Below, piece after piece: positions 14,577 to 40,610 of a stretch of 64,000 bases of DNA (the stretch's first letter is position 1; each line of letters begins with the position of its first letter). The translations under genes and the position numbers were made by a program. The DNA is from Atopobiaceae bacterium (GTDB lineage: Bacteria > Actinomycetota > Coriobacteriia > Coriobacteriales > Atopobiaceae): contig JAKVOB010000001.1 in the NCBI GenBank assembly GCA_022483015.1, positions 1,140,902 to 1,204,901 on the forward strand. Reading direction: 5' to 3'. Under the pieces are notes generated by a model. It made no database searches. It was not told the DNA's origin and saw only the letters and a list, made by a program, of their open reading frames with translations.

Positions 14577-17500
14577 ATGGCATTCGTGCACCTCCACAAC
14601 CATACCGACTACTCCATGCTCGACGGTGCCACCCGCATCCCCGCCATGGTCAAGCGTGCCGTCGACCTGGGGATGCCTGCCGTCGCCATCACCGACCATG
14701 GCTACATGTACGGCGTGCCCGACCTCGCGCTCGAGTGCGACAAGTACAACCACGCGCTGGCCGACTTCAAGCAGTGGTCGCACGACAAGGAGTGCTTCGA
14801 GAAGGGCCGTGAGCTCGAGGAGCCTCCCGCCGACGCCGCGGACGCCGGTGTCCATGACCACGTCCACGACCAGTGGGCCAGAGACGTCGCCGCCCATGAG
14901 GCGGGGGCGGACCTCGCCACCACCAAGCCGACCCCGCTCGTCAAGCCGATCATCGGCTGCGAGGTCTACTTCACGCCCGACTCGTCCCTCTCGCGTGACC
15001 GCAAGCCCGACCTCTACCACATGATCCTCATCGCCAAGAACATGGTTGGCTACGTCAACCTCATGCAGGTCGTCTCCGACGCCGCCACGCGCGGCTACTA
15101 CTACAAGCCCCGTGTCACCCTCGAGATGCTCCAGGAGCACGCCGAGGGCCTCATCTGCAGCTCCGCCTGCGTGGCCGGCATCATCCCCAAGCGCCTGCTC
15201 GCAGACCAGCCCGACGAGGCGCTCAAGTGGGCCCGCACCTTCAAGGAGACCTTCGCCCCCGGCGACTTCTACATCGAGATTCAGGACCATGGCAACGTCT
15301 TCAACAACGGCAGCGTGACCGACCGCGCCCTCGACGAGCGGCTCGTCCAGGTCGCGAGCACCGTGGGCGTGAAGGTCATCGCGACCAACGACTTCCACTA
15401 CCTCGTGCGCGAGGACGCCGCCACCCAGGACCTCATGATGTGCATCGGCATGGGCAAGCACCTCGACGACGAGAACCGCATGCGCATGGAGGGCACCGAG
15501 TACTACATGAAGACCGAGGAGGAGATGCGCGAGCTCTTCTCATGGATTCCCGAGGCATGTGACACCACGGTCGAGATCGCCGACAAGTGCGACGTCGAGC
15601 TCGAGTGGGGCAAGATCCTCCTGCCTGCCTACCCGCTGGACCCCGGCGAGACCAACGAGAGCCAGTTCAGGCGTGAGTGCATCGACGGCCTGGCCCGACG
15701 CTACGGTCCCGACTGGAAGAACGTCGAGGTCGCGGGCATAAACGTCGAGGAACGCTTCGAGTACGAGTATAAGATCATCTGCGACAAGGGCTTCGCCGCC
15801 TACTTCCTCATCGTCCAGGACTACGTGCGCTGGGCCAAGGAGAACGGCATCGGCGTGGGGCCTGGCCGCGGCAGCGCCGCCGGTGCCATCGTCGCCTACG
15901 CCATGGACATCACGAGCTTCGACCCCCTCGAGAACGGCCTCATGTTCGAGAGGTTCCTCTCGCCCCAGCGTACCGAGATGCCCGATATCGACATGGACTT
16001 CGACGACGAGCGAAGGCTCGAGGTCGTCGAGTACGTGCGCCAGCGCTATGGTGCCGACCACGTCACGCACGTCATCACCTACTCCACGATCAAGGCCAAG
16101 CAGGCCATCAACGATGCCAACCGCGTGCTCGACTTCCCCGTGTTCAAGGGCCAGCGCCTCTCCAAGATGATCTCGGGCGACCCGTCGGCCAAGCTCAGGT
16201 TCGCCCTCACCAAGACGGAGGGCCACGAGGACCAGTACAGCCCCGACTTCGCCGAGGCCTATGCCAAGGACCCCGACGACCATCGCATCATCGACGCGGC
16301 CCTCTCGATCGAGGGCCTCACCCGCGGCGAGGGCGTCCATGCCTGCGCCGTCCTCATCGCCCCCGGCCCGGTGCGCGAGCACGTGCCCACCAAGCTCGAC
16401 ACCAAGGGCGGCGTCGAGATCACGCAGTACGAGGGCCATACCGTGGCCGACATGGGCCTGCTCAAGATGGACTTCCTGGGCCTGCGTACCCTCACGGTCA
16501 TCTCGAAGGCCCTCAAGAACATCCATGACAACACGGGTACCGACGTCGACGTCAACGCCGTCCCCTTCGACGACCCGGCCATCTACAAGCTCATGGGCGA
16601 AGGGCGGACGGCCGGCGTCTTCCAGGTCGAGTCCGCCGGCATGACGGCCACGATCAAGCAGATGAAGCCTACCGAGTACAAGCACATGGTCGCCCTCATC
16701 GCCCTCTACCGCCCTGGCCCCCTGGGTGCCGGCATGGTCGCCGACTACATCGACCGCATGAACGGCAAGAAGGAGGTCGTCTACTACGACGACCGCCTGG
16801 CCCCCATCCTGGAGGAGACCTACGGCACCATCGTCTACCAGGAACAGGTCATGCAGATCTCCATGAAGATGAGCGGCTTCTCGGCCGGCGAGTCCGACAA
16901 GGTCAGAAAGGCCGTGGCCAAGAAGAAGATCAAGCTCATGCAGGAGGTCGTCCAGCACTGGGACGACGGTACCGACGAGACGATGGAGGACCACTGGATG
17001 AACGGCGCCGTGCGCAACGGCTACAGCCGTGCCATCGCCGAGAAGATCTGGTCGGACGTCCTGAAGTTCGCCTCCTACGCTTTCAACAAGTCGCACTCCG
17101 CGGGCTATGCCATCCTCGTCATGCAGACGGCGTGGCTCAAGGCCCACTATCCGCACGAGTACATGGCGGCCGTCCTCACGAGCTACACCGGCAAGACCGA
17201 GAAGATCGTCCACTACGTCTCCGCGTGCCGTCACGAGGGCATCGCCATCCTGCCTCCTGACATCAACGAGTCCGGCACCGAGTTCACGGCCGTCCCCGAG
17301 GGCGTGCGCTTCGGCCTGGCCGGCATCCGTGGCGTGGGCGAGGGCGCGGCCGAGTGCATCCTGGCCGAGCGCGCGGCGGGCGGCCCCTTCAAGACCCTGC
17401 ATGACTTCGTGGACCGGGTCGACGCCACCCAGGCCAACCGCCGCGTGGTCGAGGCCCTCATCAAGGCCGGCGCCTTCGACTCCACCGGCTACACCCGCAT

Positions 17501-18365
17501 GCAGCTCACCGGGTTCGTCGACAAGAACAACCCCGAGAACATCATCGACTCCGCCACCAAGCGCCAGAAGGACCGTGCCGCCGGGCAGAGCTCGCTCTTC
17601 GACATGTTCGGGGACGTGGACGGGTCCGGCTTCGACGCCGAGGTCCCCGCCCCGAACGGCCAGGAGTGGGACCGTCACGTCAAGCTCGCCCAAGAGAAGG
17701 ACGTGCTGGGTATCTACGTGTCCGACCACCCCCTGCGACCCTACGAGTACGCGCTCTCGAAGGCGCGCGACTGCTCGATCACGGAGCTCCTCGCCGGCCG
17801 CATGGCCGACGGTACGGCGCGCCACGACGAGTCGTCCTCCTGCTGGATCGCGGGCATGGTCTCGGGCCTTGCCAAGAAGACCACCAAGAAGGGCGACGCC
17901 ATGGCGGTGCTCACCCTCGAGGACATGGAGGGCGAGATCACGGTCGTGGTCTTCCCCAAGACGTATCGCCAGTCCGCTTCGGCGCTCACGGGCGAGGTCG
18001 ACGAGCAGGGCAACGCCACGGGAGACGTCTTCGTGCGCATCCTGGGGCGCATCGACCGCGGCGACCGCGGTGACCAGTTCATGGCACAGAAGGTGGAGCC
18101 GCTCCAGCTTGACGAGAGGACCAATCGGCCCAAGGTGCTCGAGGTTATGATTCCGAGCCACGACCTGTCGCGCTCGTTCATGGAACGTCTGCAGAGCGTG
18201 TTCAAGCAGTATCCTGGCCTGGACCACGTGGAGCTGCGCGTCGAGTCCGGGAGCGGCGGCACCATGCGCATGGAGATCCCCACCACCGTGGACGCCCACA
18301 ACGTGGTGCTCTTCGCCGAGGTCACTGACCTTATCGGCAACGAGGGCAAGGCTGTCATCGCGTAG
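14577..18365 (+). CDS. dnaE: DNA polymerase III alpha subunit (DnaE)
   Basis: Replicative C-family DNA polymerase, 1262 residues. The PHP domain opens the protein (FVHLHNHTDYSMLDG) and keeps the metal-binding His pattern, consistent with intrinsic PHP proofreading as in actinobacterial DnaE1. The polymerase active site has PDIDMDF with Asp470 and Asp472 and a third Asp in KMDFLGLR. A tandem HhH region follows (VRFGLAGIRGVGEGAAE), and an OB-fold near 1080-1150 (WIAGMVSGLAKK). Relative to typical DnaE (about 1160-1180 aa) there is an insertion of about 60 residues, rich in Asp, His and Ala, at roughly 60-120 within the PHP domain. Start: ATG after GAAAGG. No proofreading exonuclease is adjacent. 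Confidence 0.96.
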   Translation: MAFVHLHNHTDYSMLDGATRIPAMVKRAVDLGMPAVAITDHGYMYGVPDLALECDKYNHALADFKQWSHDKECFEKGRELEEPPADAADAGVHDHVHDQWARDVAAHEAGADLATTKPTPLVKPIIGCEVYFTPDSSLSRDRKPDLYHMILIAKNMVGYVNLMQVVSDAATRGYYYKPRVTLEMLQEHAEGLICSSACVAGIIPKRLLADQPDEALKWARTFKETFAPGDFYIEIQDHGNVFNNGSVTDRALDERLVQVASTVGVKVIATNDFHYLVREDAATQDLMMCIGMGKHLDDENRMRMEGTEYYMKTEEEMRELFSWIPEACDTTVEIADKCDVELEWGKILLPAYPLDPGETNESQFRRECIDGLARRYGPDWKNVEVAGINVEERFEYEYKIICDKGFAAYFLIVQDYVRWAKENGIGVGPGRGSAAGAIVAYAMDITSFDPLENGLMFERFLSPQRTEMPDIDMDFDDERRLEVVEYVRQRYGADHVTHVITYSTIKAKQAINDANRVLDFPVFKGQRLSKMISGDPSAKLRFALTKTEGHEDQYSPDFAEAYAKDPDDHRIIDAALSIEGLTRGEGVHACAVLIAPGPVREHVPTKLDTKGGVEITQYEGHTVADMGLLKMDFLGLRTLTVISKALKNIHDNTGTDVDVNAVPFDDPAIYKLMGEGRTAGVFQVESAGMTATIKQMKPTEYKHMVALIALYRPGPLGAGMVADYIDRMNGKKEVVYYDDRLAPILEETYGTIVYQEQVMQISMKMSGFSAGESDKVRKAVAKKKIKLMQEVVQHWDDGTDETMEDHWMNGAVRNGYSRAIAEKIWSDVLKFASYAFNKSHSAGYAILVMQTAWLKAHYPHEYMAAVLTSYTGKTEKIVHYVSACRHEGIAILPPDINESGTEFTAVPEGVRFGLAGIRGVGEGAAECILAERAAGGPFKTLHDFVDRVDATQANRRVVEALIKAGAFDSTGYTRMQLTGFVDKNNPENIIDSATKRQKDRAAGQSSLFDMFGDVDGSGFDAEVPAPNGQEWDRHVKLAQEKDVLGIYVSDHPLRPYEYALSKARDCSITELLAGRMADGTARHDESSSCWIAGMVSGLAKKTTKKGDAMAVLTLEDMEGEITVVVFPKTYRQSASALTGEVDEQGNATGDVFVRILGRIDRGDRGDQFMAQKVEPLQLDERTNRPKVLEVMIPSHDLSRSFMERLQSVFKQYPGLDHVELRVESGSGGTMRMEIPTTVDAHNVVLFAEVTDLIGNEGKAVIA

Positions 18366-18526: not shown

Positions 18527-18913
18527 ATGTCCGACATCAAGTTCTGGCGCTGCAACCATTGCGGGAACCTCCTCTACACGTTGCACGACGGCGGTGTCAA
18601 TCCGCTGTGCTGCGGCGAGAAGATGCAGCTTCTGGAGGCCAACTCGACCGACGCCGCCACCGAGAAGCACGTGCCGGTGGTCGAGCGCATCGCTGACGGC
18701 CATGCCCTCAAGGTCAGCGTGGGCTCCGTTGCCCACCCCATGACCGAGGAGCATCACATCGAGTGGATCGCCGTCGTCTCGGACGGCCGCGTCGACTTCG
18801 CGACCCTCGCTGCGGGCGACGAGCCCAGCGCCATCTTTGCTGGCGAGACCCACAAGTCGGGTACGGTCTACGCATACTGCAACCTCCACGGCCTCTGGAA
18901 GGCCGAGTTCTAG
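18527..18913 (+). CDS. dfx: Desulfoferrodoxin (2Fe superoxide reductase)
   Basis: Reduces superoxide to hydrogen peroxide without making oxygen; a cytoplasmic defence of anaerobes. It has 128 residues with both iron centres. Center I (desulforedoxin-like, FeCys4) uses Cys9, Cys12, Cys28 and Cys29 (CNHC...CC). Center II (FeHis4Cys) uses His48, His70, His76 or His77, Cys118 and His121 (YCNLHGLW). The EKHVP motif supplies the catalytic Lys47 next to the iron. The start at 18527 follows AGAAGGA. It is monocistronic, with a palindromic promoter element upstream and a clear terminator downstream. Electrons presumably come from a rubredoxin encoded elsewhere. Confidence 0.95.
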   Translation: MSDIKFWRCNHCGNLLYTLHDGGVNPLCCGEKMQLLEANSTDAATEKHVPVVERIADGHALKVSVGSVAHPMTEEHHIEWIAVVSDGRVDFATLAAGDEPSAIFAGETHKSGTVYAYCNLHGLWKAEF

Positions 18914-19062: not shown

Positions 19063-20884
19063 ATGAAGATAGCCATCTCGCAGATGAACGTCACGACCGG
19101 TGACCTCGGGTCCGTGAGCTCGCGCATGGTCGCCCAGGCCGATGCGGCCCGTGCCAAGGGTGCCGACCTGATCGTGTTCCCCTCGACCGTCCTCACGGGG
19201 AGCGTCGGCGGAGGGCCTGCTCGACTCCGACGCCTTCAGGGACGACCTCGCCCACACGCTCATGGACCTTGCCCAGCGCATGCAGCTCCCGGCACTCGTC
19301 CCCTTCGCCTACACCAACAGCGTCGCCTCATTCCACGAGGTCGCGCTCATGGTCAACGGTCAGGCCATGCCACTCCGCTCCGCGACCTACGCAGGCATGC
19401 TCGCACGCGAGAGGGACTTCGATGACGACGACCTGGCGCATGCCGCCGAGATGCCCGTCACCTTCGAGCTGGGGGACGCACGTGTGGGCGTCGCCTTCGA
19501 CTACACCCAGCTCTCCGCCATCCCCCAGTCGCCAGACCATGTCGACGTCGTGGTCTACCTGCCCTCGGACCCCTTCGTCGCCGCTGATGAGCGCACCTCG
19601 GCGGCCGAGTCGGTCCATGACGGCTGCTACCTCCAGGATGCGTCCCGTTCAGGTTCCTGGCTCGTCGTCGTGAACCCTGTGGGCGGTTTCGACGACCTGG
19701 TCTACGTGGGTGCGAGCTTCGTGATGGCCCCCTGGGGCGAGCTCGCGTATGTGGCGCCTACCTGCGAGGAGTCCTTCTCGGTGGCCGAGCTCGACCTTGC
19801 GTCCGAAGGCCCGCTCGCAGCTGTCGTCGCCCCACCGCACACCGATGCCCGCCTCGTGCTCTGGCACGCGCTCTCCCTTGCCTTGGGTGACTTCGTCACC
19901 AAGTCGGGCCATGCGGACGTCTGCCTCCTGCTCGACGGCACCCTTGCCTCCTCGGTGTGCGCGACCCTGGCTGTCGACGCCCTGGGCCCGTGCCACGTCC
20001 ATGGCCTGCTGGCGCCGCTCGCCGGCTCGGAGGCGCTCGCCGACGCCCGCACCCTCGCCTCGAACCTCCGTCTTGGCACGCACGAGGTCGATGGCGAGGT
20101 CCTCTCGGACGTCGCCTCGACGCTTGCTGGGGTCCCGGCAGGCTCGGCGGGGGCGGACCTCCGGCGCGACGTCGCCTTCGCGCGCCTCGCCGACCTCGCG
20201 CGGTCGACGGGTGGCCTGGTCATGGCCGACGTCGACAAGACGTCCGTCGCGCTCGGCCCCCTGCACCTGCCGACTGCGGCCTCCTTCGCCCCGATCGCTG
20301 ACGTCTATCGCTCCGACGTCGCCGACATGGCCCGCATCCGTCAGACCGTCTCGCCGGTCTTCCCGCCCTCGGTCCTCACACGCATCGAGGTACCCGAGGG
20401 ACTCCTCCCGGAAGGGGAACTCCCTGCCGAGCAACGTCTCGCGCGCATCGAGGCCATCTGCTACCTGCATGTGGAGCAGAACCTCTGCCTGGCCGAGCTC
20501 GGCGGTGACGCCTCTCGGCTCGAGCTCGCGCCTGCGGTCCTCGAGCGCATCCGCACCTCCGAGCTCGCCCGCAGGACGCTGCCTGTCTTTCCTGCCGTCT
20601 CAGAGTGCGCGTTCGACGTCAGGCGCTGGCCGGTGGGGCTTGCCTGGAGCGATGACGACCACCCGCTTCCCAAGGATGGTGACGCCGCCTCGCCCCATGG
20701 CTCCTCCATCGAGGCGATGCTCCAGGCCCTCCTCGGGTCCGACGAGCCCGCCATCGCCGACGAGGCGGACCTCCAGGACCAGGAGCGTGATGCCATGGGG
20801 TTCCTGCGTGACATCGCCGAGGGCGGTGGGCTCGACGCCTCCTCGGATGACATCTTCGGGACGGGCATGTTCTCCGACAACTGA
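19063..20884 (+). pseudogene. NadE-like (glutamine-dependent NAD synthetase) relative, frameshifted, catalytic residues lost
   Basis: Two frames together read as a full-length relative of two-domain NAD synthetase. Frame one starts at ATG 19063 (MKIAISQMNVTTGDL, nitrilase domain). The match moves by +1 at about 19208-19211 (an extra G in GGCGGAG) and continues to 20884; the second part could also start at ATG 19262 (540 aa). Homology is plain (VNPVGGFDDLVYVGASFV; TLAVDALGPCHVHGL; ASFAPIADVYRSDVADMA). However, the nitrilase Glu (FPEL becomes FPST), the Lys and the Cys (ICED becomes AFDY) are all missing, and the synthetase P-loop SGGxDS is LDGTLASS. The rest has no stops and keeps normal codon use, so it may have been a maintained non-catalytic protein before, or despite, the frameshift. 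A sequencing error could explain the shift but not the lost residues. Confidence 0.7.
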
Positions 20885-20950: not shown

Positions 20951-21487
20951 GTGGTCATCATCGGCATAGACCCAGGGCTGGCCAACACCGGATGGGGCGT
21001 CGTCGAGACCCGCGGCCCGGTATGCCGTGCGCGGGCCTATGGCTGCATAGAGACCTCGGCGGGCTCTCCGCTCAACGTGCGCCTCGGACATATCTTCACC
21101 GAGCTCTCTGCCGTGATCGAGCGCTACCATCCCACGGACGTCTCGGTCGAGGGCATCTACTTCGGTCAGAACACGAAGTCCGCCATCGCGACGGCCCATG
21201 CACGCGGGGCTGCCCTCGTTGCGTGCTCGGTCTGCGGCTGCGAGGTGGGGGAGTACACCCCCATGCAGATCAAGCAGGCGGTGGTCGGTACCGGCACGGC
21301 CGACAAGCGTCAGGTCACCTTCATGGTCCGTCAGGTGCTCGGCCTCGACCACGACCCCAAGCCCGACCACTGCGCGGATGCACTCGCCGCGGCGGTCTGC
21401 CATGCCCATCTCTCCCGCACCAAGGCCCTCTGTGAGCCTGCGTGCGAGGGCCACCTCTCGCCTTCGACCGTAAGGACCAGCGCATGA
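20951..21487 (+). CDS. ruvC: Holliday junction endonuclease RuvC
   Basis: A 178-residue RNase H-fold resolvase that cuts Holliday junctions moved by RuvAB. Acidic catalytic residues are Asp7 (GIDPGLANTGWG), Glu67 (VSVEGIYFG), Asp139 and Asp143 (PDHCADALA). Starts with GTG at 20951, preceded by AGGAGGCGCAT; no ATG alternative fits the conserved N terminus. A TATCAT -10-like hexamer is at 20903-20908. Its last codon overlaps ruvA as ATGA, so ruvCAB are translationally coupled. The C-terminal tail ([15 protein letters not shown]) is longer than in E. coli. Confidence 0.96.
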   Translation: MVIIGIDPGLANTGWGVVETRGPVCRARAYGCIETSAGSPLNVRLGHIFTELSAVIERYHPTDVSVEGIYFGQNTKSAIATAHARGAALVACSVCGCEVGEYTPMQIKQAVVGTGTADKRQVTFMVRQVLGLDHDPKPDHCADALAAAVCHAHLSRTKALCEPACEGHLSPSTVRTSA

Positions 21488-23225: not shown

Positions 23226-23636
23226 ATGCTGCAACACGACTACATCGTCGACCTCATCCAGAACTTCGTCGCTGCGATCACCGCAGCCCTGAAGGGTGCC
23301 CTCATGCATGGCGACAAGCCGTCGCTTGAGGTGGCCGAGTCGAGCGTCGCGGAGCTCCTCGACCTCGACAGGGAGACGGCCTTCTCGCTGTCCCCTGGCT
23401 CGCTCGTCACGATGATGCAGCTGTCGGGCATCGGCGACTCCACGGCTGGCTATGTCTCATATGCGCTCCGTCGCATCGGGGATGCCTATGCCAAGGACGG
23501 CGAGTCCGACGTCGCCGCCGTGAGACGCGCGCAGTCAAATGCCATCGCAGACGCCTTCGGCTGCCCCAGGGGGCAGGTACCCAAGGAGTTTCAGGGGATG
23601 GAACAGGACATCCAGGACGAACAGGGACAGGAGTAG
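23226..23636 (+). CDS. Small helical protein, possibly DUF6483 family
   Basis: 136 residues, mostly predicted helix, with no cysteine cluster, signal peptide or membrane segment. The opening [24 protein letters not shown] resembles the DUF6483 family of uncharacterised Firmicutes/Actinobacteria proteins (typically M-x-Q-x-D-Y-I at the start), which I recall without being able to check. Lies 57 bases after ruvB and ends two bases before the fhs ATG, so it is probably translated with fhs. Function unknown; the C-terminal tail is acidic and Gln-rich. Confidence 0.6.
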
Positions 23637-39003: not shown

Positions 39004-39122
39004 GGCTCCGACTTGTTACACAACCCCACGTCCTCGGCAGGATTCCTGCGAACAGGCGGGGTTGTGTGACGGATTCCTGCCGAATGCGGCCACTTGTGTA
39101 ACAGGGTGGGTCCGGGCGCGTC
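39004..39122. repeat. 119-bp direct repeat, copy A
   Basis: Identical over all 119 bases to 40492-40610. It has internal symmetry: GTTACACAA (39015-39023) pairs with TTGTGTAAC (39094-39102), TCGGCAGGA (39034-39042) with TCCTGCCGA (39075-39083). ACACAACCCC (39018-39027) can alternatively pair with GGGGTTGTGT (39058-39067). GCAGGATTCCTGC at 39037 is a local palindrome. So the element is a nested palindrome, not a simple direct repeat. It carries no frame of its own and stands left of the DUF559-like gene. Confidence 0.9.
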
Positions 39123-39286: not shown

Positions 39287-39327
39287 AAGCACCTCTCCGC
39301 TCTCGCGGCGCATGATAGCGTGTGCCC

Positions 39328-40374
39328 ATGACCATCTTCTTTGGATATCGGACGGGCATCGAGCTTTGGCGTAGGCCGGAGATCTGCTTGCATGCCTCGT
39401 TCTCGACGTCGGTCGAGGTCGAGGTCCCCGATGACGTGCCCGAGGGGCCATGGCACATCGCGGGCACGGTATCGACCATCATGGGAGATACCATCAACAG
39501 GCTCGAACGTCCTTGGGACCTCATCACCTCCAAGAGACATCGCCCCTCTTCAGAGGGCGATGTCACCTGGCATCTGTGCACCGTGAGGCTCCCACCGGGT
39601 AGCGGTAGCAAACTTGATGATGACGTCTTCCTCTCTACTCCCGAGTTCTGCCTCCTTCAGATGGCCGAGGTGCTTTCGTTGCCAGCTCTCGTCGAACTCA
39701 TGGACGAGTTCTGTGGCACCTATCGACCTCGCATGGCTGACGAGCCCCATGACGGCGAGAAGGACACGCTCGTCCAGCGCGACCCCCTTACTTCCCGTGC
39801 CCGAATCGCGGATTTCCTTGACTCGTGTCCCGGGCTGAGAGGCAACCGCCGCGCGCGGCAGGCCCTCGCCCATGTTGTCGACGGGTCTGCCTCGCCCAAG
39901 GAGGCCCAAGCTGAGATGCTCTTCTCACTGCCGAGGTCCTGGGGCGGCAGAGGCCTCCCAAGGCCTGTGATGAACGCGCGCTTCCCCGTACCCGGCCACC
40001 TGAGGCGGCCGGGTGATAGCGCATATGTCGTCTGTGACATCTGCTGGCCTGTGAGGCTTGGTGGCTCGGTGCTCTATGTCGCCGTCGAGTATCAATCGAC
40101 TGCATGGCACGTGGGGGCGGAGAAGCTTGCGGCCGACTCGCGCCGTCGCAACCTGCTCGAGAGCATGGGGGTCCATGTCATAACGCTCACGGCGGCAGAG
40201 CTCTATTCGCAGGAGGGGTTTGACAGGGTTGCCGACCTGGTGTTCTCGGCAATCGGCCTGCGCGATCGCTCGACGGTGCCACCTGAGGTCCGTGCCGCCC
40301 AGGCGGCCGAGCTGAGGGAGGAGCTTCTCCATCGGGCGACGGCTGAAGGCGAGCGGCCTAGTCCGCAGATGTGA
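39328..40374 (+). CDS. Orphan DUF559-like (Vsr/PD-(D/E)XK-type) protein between direct repeats
   Basis: 348 residues. The C-terminal part (about 225-315) resembles the DUF559 fold of Vsr-like nucleases: VLYVAVEYQSTAWHVGAEKLAADSRRRNLLESMGVHVITLTAAEL, with the acidic VEYQS core and the KxxxDxxRRNxL helix. The middle (FLSTPEFCLLQMAEVLSLPALVELMDEF ... SPKEAQAEMLFSL...GLPRPVMNARF) matches the architecture of actinobacterial AbiEi-like/DUF559 proteins, minus their N-terminal HTH. Whether it cuts DNA is unknown. No partner toxin is adjacent. ATG 39328 (GTG 39322 also possible) lacks a Shine-Dalgarno; a leaderless mRNA is possible. Codon use is less GC3-biased than in neighbours. It stands exactly between two identical 119-bp repeats. 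Confidence 0.65.
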   Translation: MTIFFGYRTGIELWRRPEICLHASFSTSVEVEVPDDVPEGPWHIAGTVSTIMGDTINRLERPWDLITSKRHRPSSEGDVTWHLCTVRLPPGSGSKLDDDVFLSTPEFCLLQMAEVLSLPALVELMDEFCGTYRPRMADEPHDGEKDTLVQRDPLTSRARIADFLDSCPGLRGNRRARQALAHVVDGSASPKEAQAEMLFSLPRSWGGRGLPRPVMNARFPVPGHLRRPGDSAYVVCDICWPVRLGGSVLYVAVEYQSTAWHVGAEKLAADSRRRNLLESMGVHVITLTAAELYSQEGFDRVADLVFSAIGLRDRSTVPPEVRAAQAAELREELLHRATAEGERPSPQM

Positions 40375-40491: not shown

Positions 40492-40610
40492 GGCTCCGAC
40501 TTGTTACACAACCCCACGTCCTCGGCAGGATTCCTGCGAACAGGCGGGGTTGTGTGACGGATTCCTGCCGAATGCGGCCACTTGTGTAACAGGGTGGGTC
40601 CGGGCGCGTC
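40492..40610. repeat. 119-bp direct repeat, copy B
   Basis: Perfect copy of 39004-39122 in the same orientation. Flanking bases diverge at once on both sides (the base before is T in A, C in B; after it GAATAT in A and CCTCCT in B), so identity ends exactly at the element. The pair encloses 1369 bases, including the DUF559-like gene. Confidence 0.9.

Follow-up and report, generated by a model that had tools for sequence, protein, structure and literature searches.

NAD synthetases are sorted into one-domain and two-domain forms, and the standard evolutionary study of the family is that of De Ingeniis et al. 2012 (PMC3376133), whose main text does not contain the words inactive or Actinobacteria, or words beginning with Coriobacter-. 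Our searches of the open-access literature on NAD synthetase pseudoenzymes, nitrilase pseudoenzymes and the NadE of Coriobacteriia found nothing relevant. Two described types bear on the locus presented here. The first is the two-domain NadE of NF010588 (PRK13981; PDB 3n05, 4f4h and 5kha), with which the present gene, here called pseudo-NadE, shares domain order, fold and descent. However, pseudo-NadE is devoid of catalytic residues in both halves, and adds a C-terminal linker ending in F-S-x-N. The second is the M. tuberculosis-like form of 650-680 residues (NF002730, PRK02628), which is homologous to pseudo-NadE and present in the same genomes, but that copy is catalytic, distantly related and located elsewhere in the genome.

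The window, by which we mean the whole 64-kb stretch analysed (G000:C1:1140902-1204901), belongs to a source genome of 2.28 Mb in a single contig. Alignment, tblastn and orthologues place the gene at 19063..20884, with one frame break; it and all features given below lie on the + strand. Its conserved upstream neighbours are dnaE, encoding DNA polymerase III alpha (14577..18365), and the desulfoferrodoxin gene dfx (18527..18913), and its conserved downstream neighbour is ruvC (20951..21487), followed by ruvA and ruvB. In the Atopobiaceae (f1) and in a Collinsella-like family (f10, named from likeness to Collinsella ihumii, L192) the gene sits between dfx and ruvCAB, and dnaE lies upstream wherever the retrieved stretch is long enough to include it; in G024 no desulfoferrodoxin match was found at this place. 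The gene follows desulfoferrodoxin in family f3 and lies near dnaE in f7, and this shared genomic place across families argues for orthology rather than transfer. Elsewhere in the window, a small gene without Pfam match just 3' of ruvB (23226-23636) keeps its placement in several Atopobiaceae genomes. A 350-codon frame (39322-40374), also without Pfam match, lies between the two copies of a perfect 119-nt direct repeat (39004-39122 and 40492-40610, 1488 nt apart), possibly a small duplication or mobile unit.

The Pfam domains CN_hydrolase and NAD_synthase (the latter at 36.8 bits) both score above gathering level in the order of two-domain NadE, and the VNPVGG, TLAVDALG and FAPIADVY stretches from which the preliminary description derived this ancestry are present in the 540-codon frame. 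When aligned to catalytic relatives, taken from other orders of the class, the nitrilase-like (glutaminase) half (19063..19820) is seen to have lost its triad: Glu is replaced by Ser (19183-19185), Lys by approximately Ala in a loop that aligns loosely (19382-19384), and Cys by Asp (19499-19501). In the NAD-synthetase-like half (19856..20659) the catalytic loops are lost or deleted. DGTLAS (19934..19951) occupies the place of the SGGxDS loop, SGGIDS in the catalytic relatives, a DKT motif (20234..20242) replaces the catalytic NKSE, and the YGD part of the STLYGD loop is shortened or absent. The double active-site loss read earlier from this one gene was thus borne out, and extends to its relatives: the Glu-Lys-Cys triad is replaced in every pseudo and intermediate relative compared, and SGGxDS is absent in 20 of 20 full-length members of the pseudo family. 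The altered synthetase half has invariant positions of its own, since the K and T of the DKT motif, together with P-x-x-D-x-Y and R-S, are unchanged in 71 aligned sequences. All 71 match NF010588, and the window protein, scored without its N-terminal part, stays below the cut-offs of both NF010588 (119.2 bits versus 479) and TIGR00552 (25.1 bits versus 63.65). The nearest intact or nearly intact orthologue, from the same genus (L115), also falls under the NF010588 cut-off with 139.8 bits, and the low score is therefore not caused by the frameshift in the window.

This frameshift lies close to the N terminus. Similarity to the orthologues is found in frame 1 as far as about 19200 and continues in frame 2 thereafter, with the tblastn switch at 19199-19200. 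The first part (19063..19200, MKIAISQMNV...FPSTVLTG) corresponds to the first strand-helix-strand of the nitrilase-like domain and can be aligned to the start of every full-length orthologue. Between LTG and GLL the orthologues have four codons (12 nt) whereas the window gene has 13 nt (19201..19213), which amounts to one net extra base. The single extra G proposed near 19208-19211 is upheld to that extent, but which base is the additional one cannot be assigned. As also described earlier, the remainder (19214..20884) is open and coding-like: it is stop-free for 556 codons, a run with a chance of about 8e-5 at 69% GC from base composition alone, and the gene has GC values by codon position of 0.74/0.48/0.86. 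When comparable window genes were set against the syntenic stretches of three relatives, no further believable frame switch was seen in the 64 kb; two other candidates turned out to be antisense shadow frames, and a high indel rate was rejected. We therefore attribute the break either to a genuine change of recent date or to a rare error of sequencing. Of 65 strongly conserved columns, defined from 74 relatives that themselves differ at 0 to 12 of them, the window protein retains 57, so that this copy is divergent and not visibly eroded, as fits a recent break or an error. The window copy is probably broken, through mutation or sequencing error. Single lesions at other positions of the gene occur in two further genomes: a frameshift in G299 and, in G035, an in-frame TAG behind which the tail is intact.

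A profile of the gene matches 293 of 298 genomes of the class at widely differing levels. Matches are strong and mostly reach the C terminus in Atopobiaceae and the Collinsella-like family, where nearly all genomes have the gene, and are weaker in other families. Across 148 sampled genomes of the phylum, strong matches occur only in these two families; the other genomes give at most 279 bits, and the match stops before the tail. A scan of 84,980 species returned 415 relatives, and the best 80 of these 415 were examined for frame and tail. All 80 come from Coriobacteriia, have an uninterrupted frame and carry F-S-x-N at the C terminus (65 FSEN, 6 FSKN, 3 FSNN, 3 FSQN, 2 FSDN and 1 FSRN), and 20 of 20 members from the Collinsella-like family, retrieved separately, end in FFSxN. 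Orthologues with the same substitutions and an intact frame, which the preliminary description had proposed to look for, are thus found everywhere in both families. In the window the peptide reads FSDN (20870..20881), and the F-S-x-N pattern is invariant in these 80 and 20 orthologues, whereas the preceding linker with its helices (LRDIAEGGG; 20660..20869) is variable and has the highest dN/dS of all parts (0.32). The extreme case is a pseudoenzyme of 1078 residues in G018 (L215 7163-10399), located between dnaE and ruvC, in which a long acidic low-complexity insert precedes a terminal NPFSIN; tether length is evidently free but the last four residues are not. In two genomes of genus g14 (G014 and G197; L083 and L084) internal deletions have shortened the synthetase-like half while leaving the nitrilase-like half and an FSEN tail in place, and not all of the body can thus be equally needed. 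Another genome of this genus, G100 (99% complete, single contig), gave no match for the pseudoenzyme, nor for dnaE or ruvB; a masked or missing stretch is therefore likely, and we do not count this genome as a gene loss. A general role of F-S-x-N as a tag was rejected, as the pattern followed by a stop codon occurs twice in G000 and once in G024, the two genomes searched; the second occurrence in G000 ends a 51-codon frame antisense to a long ORF.

Comparison across the class places the loss of activity in stages. In other orders (f12, f15 and f17) 4 of 4 proteins retain all active-site residues. In seven families of the order (f3-f9), 15 of 15 proteins have Glu, Lys and Cys replaced and keep SGGxDS, NKSE, STLYGD/YGD and YK intact, a pattern shared by one f2 protein; with the triad lost and the synthetase loops in place, these forms are probably ammonia-dependent NadE. 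The three f2 genomes read closely (G037, G083 and G114) encode a short NadE that consists of the synthetase alone, about 290-330 codons in length. In Atopobiaceae and the Collinsella-like family, 20 of 20 compared proteins are without any active-site residue of either half. A protein tree gives this pseudo clade a single origin (support 100/100) and, when rooted on the catalytic forms, places the f3 and f7 sequences next to it. In one f3 protein (G038), whose synthetase loop is intact, the C terminus is already FPIFSKN, and f5 proteins end in the related FLDN, ILEN, FLGN and FLEN, which indicates that the tail arose before catalysis was lost. Relatives in f4 and f6-f9 are tail-less, and the tail is accordingly not required in every nitrilase-dead form.

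The source genome also encodes a catalytic NadE elsewhere, as the earlier reading had suggested checking: an NF002730-type copy (L001) at G000:C1:220826-222769, with 869 bits versus a cut-off of 473. This type is present in 46 of 46 Atopobiaceae and 45 of 45 genomes of the Collinsella-like family sampled. In f3-f9 no match to it was reported at E 1e-60; that absence is qualified by a 649-codon frame with a NAD_synthase domain in G047 (f4), and a 690-codon frame with this domain occurs in G174 (f2). The only f2 genome sampled with an NF002730-type NadE, G102, gave no match to the pseudoenzyme profile, a pattern that suggests transfer of this type within the order. On the proposed history the second enzyme would have taken over NAD synthesis, freeing the old NadE.

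Two further lines of evidence concern what the protein has kept. In twelve close pairs, pooled, dN/dS was 0.135 in the nitrilase half, 0.200 in the synthetase half and 0.316 in the linker, with 0.086 for the last seven codons, where sites are few; most close pairs individually gave 0.07 to 0.3. The dN/dS estimate proposed earlier thus came out well below 1. In the AlphaFold2 prediction for the L115 orthologue the mean pLDDT is 91.9, with values under 50 only in the last 19 residues (574-592), and the best PDB matches of the model in Foldseek are glutamine-dependent NAD synthetases (3n05, TM about 0.7). As modelled, a well-folded body of NadE shape carries the tail as a free disordered tether; a conserved short linear motif on such a tether, as looked for in an adaptor, is found in the invariant F-S-x-N within this low-pLDDT end. 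Taken together, intact-frame orthologues, low dN/dS and a separate catalytic NadE agree with the earlier interpretation that loss of both sites with frame retention marks a pseudoenzyme, and the sequences argue strongly that the gene is one by descent, retained under purifying selection after its catalytic residues were lost.

The reading that we hold to be probable is that of a conserved non-catalytic adaptor derived from the old two-domain NadE, with a folded body and a tethered C-terminal peptide, and with a broken frame in the window copy. The sequences show that an ancestor lost the glutaminase triad and kept the synthetase; that in the Atopobiaceae and Collinsella-like line, with an NF002730-type NadE in every sampled genome, the synthetase loops were lost as well; and that fold, genomic place and F-S-x-N remained, the last kept by selection. 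The rigid NadE-like body may offer one binding surface, and the peptide, on a tether whose length ranges from about 20 to several hundred residues, may dock on a putative partner protein. Since the tail is found on a relative with an intact synthetase, this second function most likely started while the enzyme was still active, as moonlighting, and outlived the activity. The tail could instead serve folding, assembly or turnover. A more specific version, in which F-S-x-N is read by a putative dedicated receptor, possibly tied to the flanking dnaE and ruvCAB, and in which a lineage-specific adaptor was made via living intermediates, we consider doubtful; if true, the receptor-read peptide would amount to a docking system of a new kind. 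Given the flanking genes, a connection with replication or recombination is worth testing, although neighbourhood alone is weak evidence.

Other readings have to be weighed against the adaptor. By analogy with HisZ, a dead relative of histidyl-tRNA synthetase that regulates HisG, the pseudoenzyme might bind the NF002730-type NadE or its substrate and so tune NAD synthesis. The strict co-occurrence of the two genes in both families would fit, and the invariant K-T, P-x-x-D-x-Y and R-S might make up a ligand pocket that has been remodelled. However, co-occurrence is also to be expected if the second NadE did no more than make up for the lost activity, the two genes lie well apart in the source genome (about 221 kb versus 1160 kb), mixed oligomers are not obvious with a distant homologue of another type, and the tail is present in the f3 genome G038, where no NF002730-type NadE was found; we regard a regulatory partner as unlikely. 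The same invariant K, T, D, Y and R positions, together with LDGxLxS, the new majority consensus at the former SGGxDS site, indicate that the replacement loops are non-random, and LDGxLxS and DKT might on this ground form an active site for new chemistry. That the protein is still an enzyme nevertheless seems quite improbable, given that the parent's metal and phosphate loops have been either exchanged or deleted, that the LDGxLxS loop differs among lineages (LDGSL, LTGDL and LEGDL), and that no new invariant catalytic-looking set of Asp, Glu, Cys or His was seen in the nitrilase half.

Decay of a replaced enzyme still to be lost would account for the frameshift in the window, for the disruptions in G299 and G035, each at a different place, and for the shrinking synthetase half in g14. 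We give it hardly any credence. The open frames and F-S-x-N ends of the best 80 of 415 relatives and the low dN/dS led us to reject decay of the family, and a single pseudo clade spans two deeply diverged families with the gene in nearly all of their genomes; a repurposed protein now dying, as once suggested, can describe at most the one allele in the window and not the protein family. It is also very unlikely that this allele is functional, either truncated from ATG 19262 or read through by programmed frameshifting. Its downstream frame is open and most conserved columns are kept, but the proposed truncation would cost about 66 residues and, with them, strand 1, helix 1 and strand 2, the first beta-alpha-beta unit of the nitrilase fold, which full-length orthologues keep; moreover, orthologues are not frameshifted here, and neither a programmed-site stop nor a slippery heptamer is apparent.

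The consequences reach beyond the single locus. The families that keep pseudo-NadE comprise gut and oral bacteria, and automatic annotation would label these genes NAD synthetase, so that a metabolic model built for relatives of Olsenella, Atopobium and Collinsella may treat a dead enzyme as the step that makes NAD. The fixed C-terminal peptide is a concrete starting point for asking what such a protein does after catalysis is gone. Because forms with both sites alive, one dead or both dead coexist within the order, the conversion of an enzyme into a pseudoenzyme can be tested directly in the laboratory.

Among bacterial pseudoenzymes, HisZ and the inactive dihydroorotase partner of aspartate transcarbamoylase serve in regulation or assembly. 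Pseudo-NadE would resemble them in being a dead paralogue or orthologue that is retained because it binds, but differs in fold and pathway, and in having a fixed C-terminal peptide as its most conserved end. Close counterparts are also the nitrilase-dead NadE of f3-f9, which are the same gene by descent with the same dead nitrilase half and, in G038, the same F-S-x-N tail. These forms have intact synthetase loops and no second NadE was found beside them, whereas pseudo-NadE presents the opposite on both counts.
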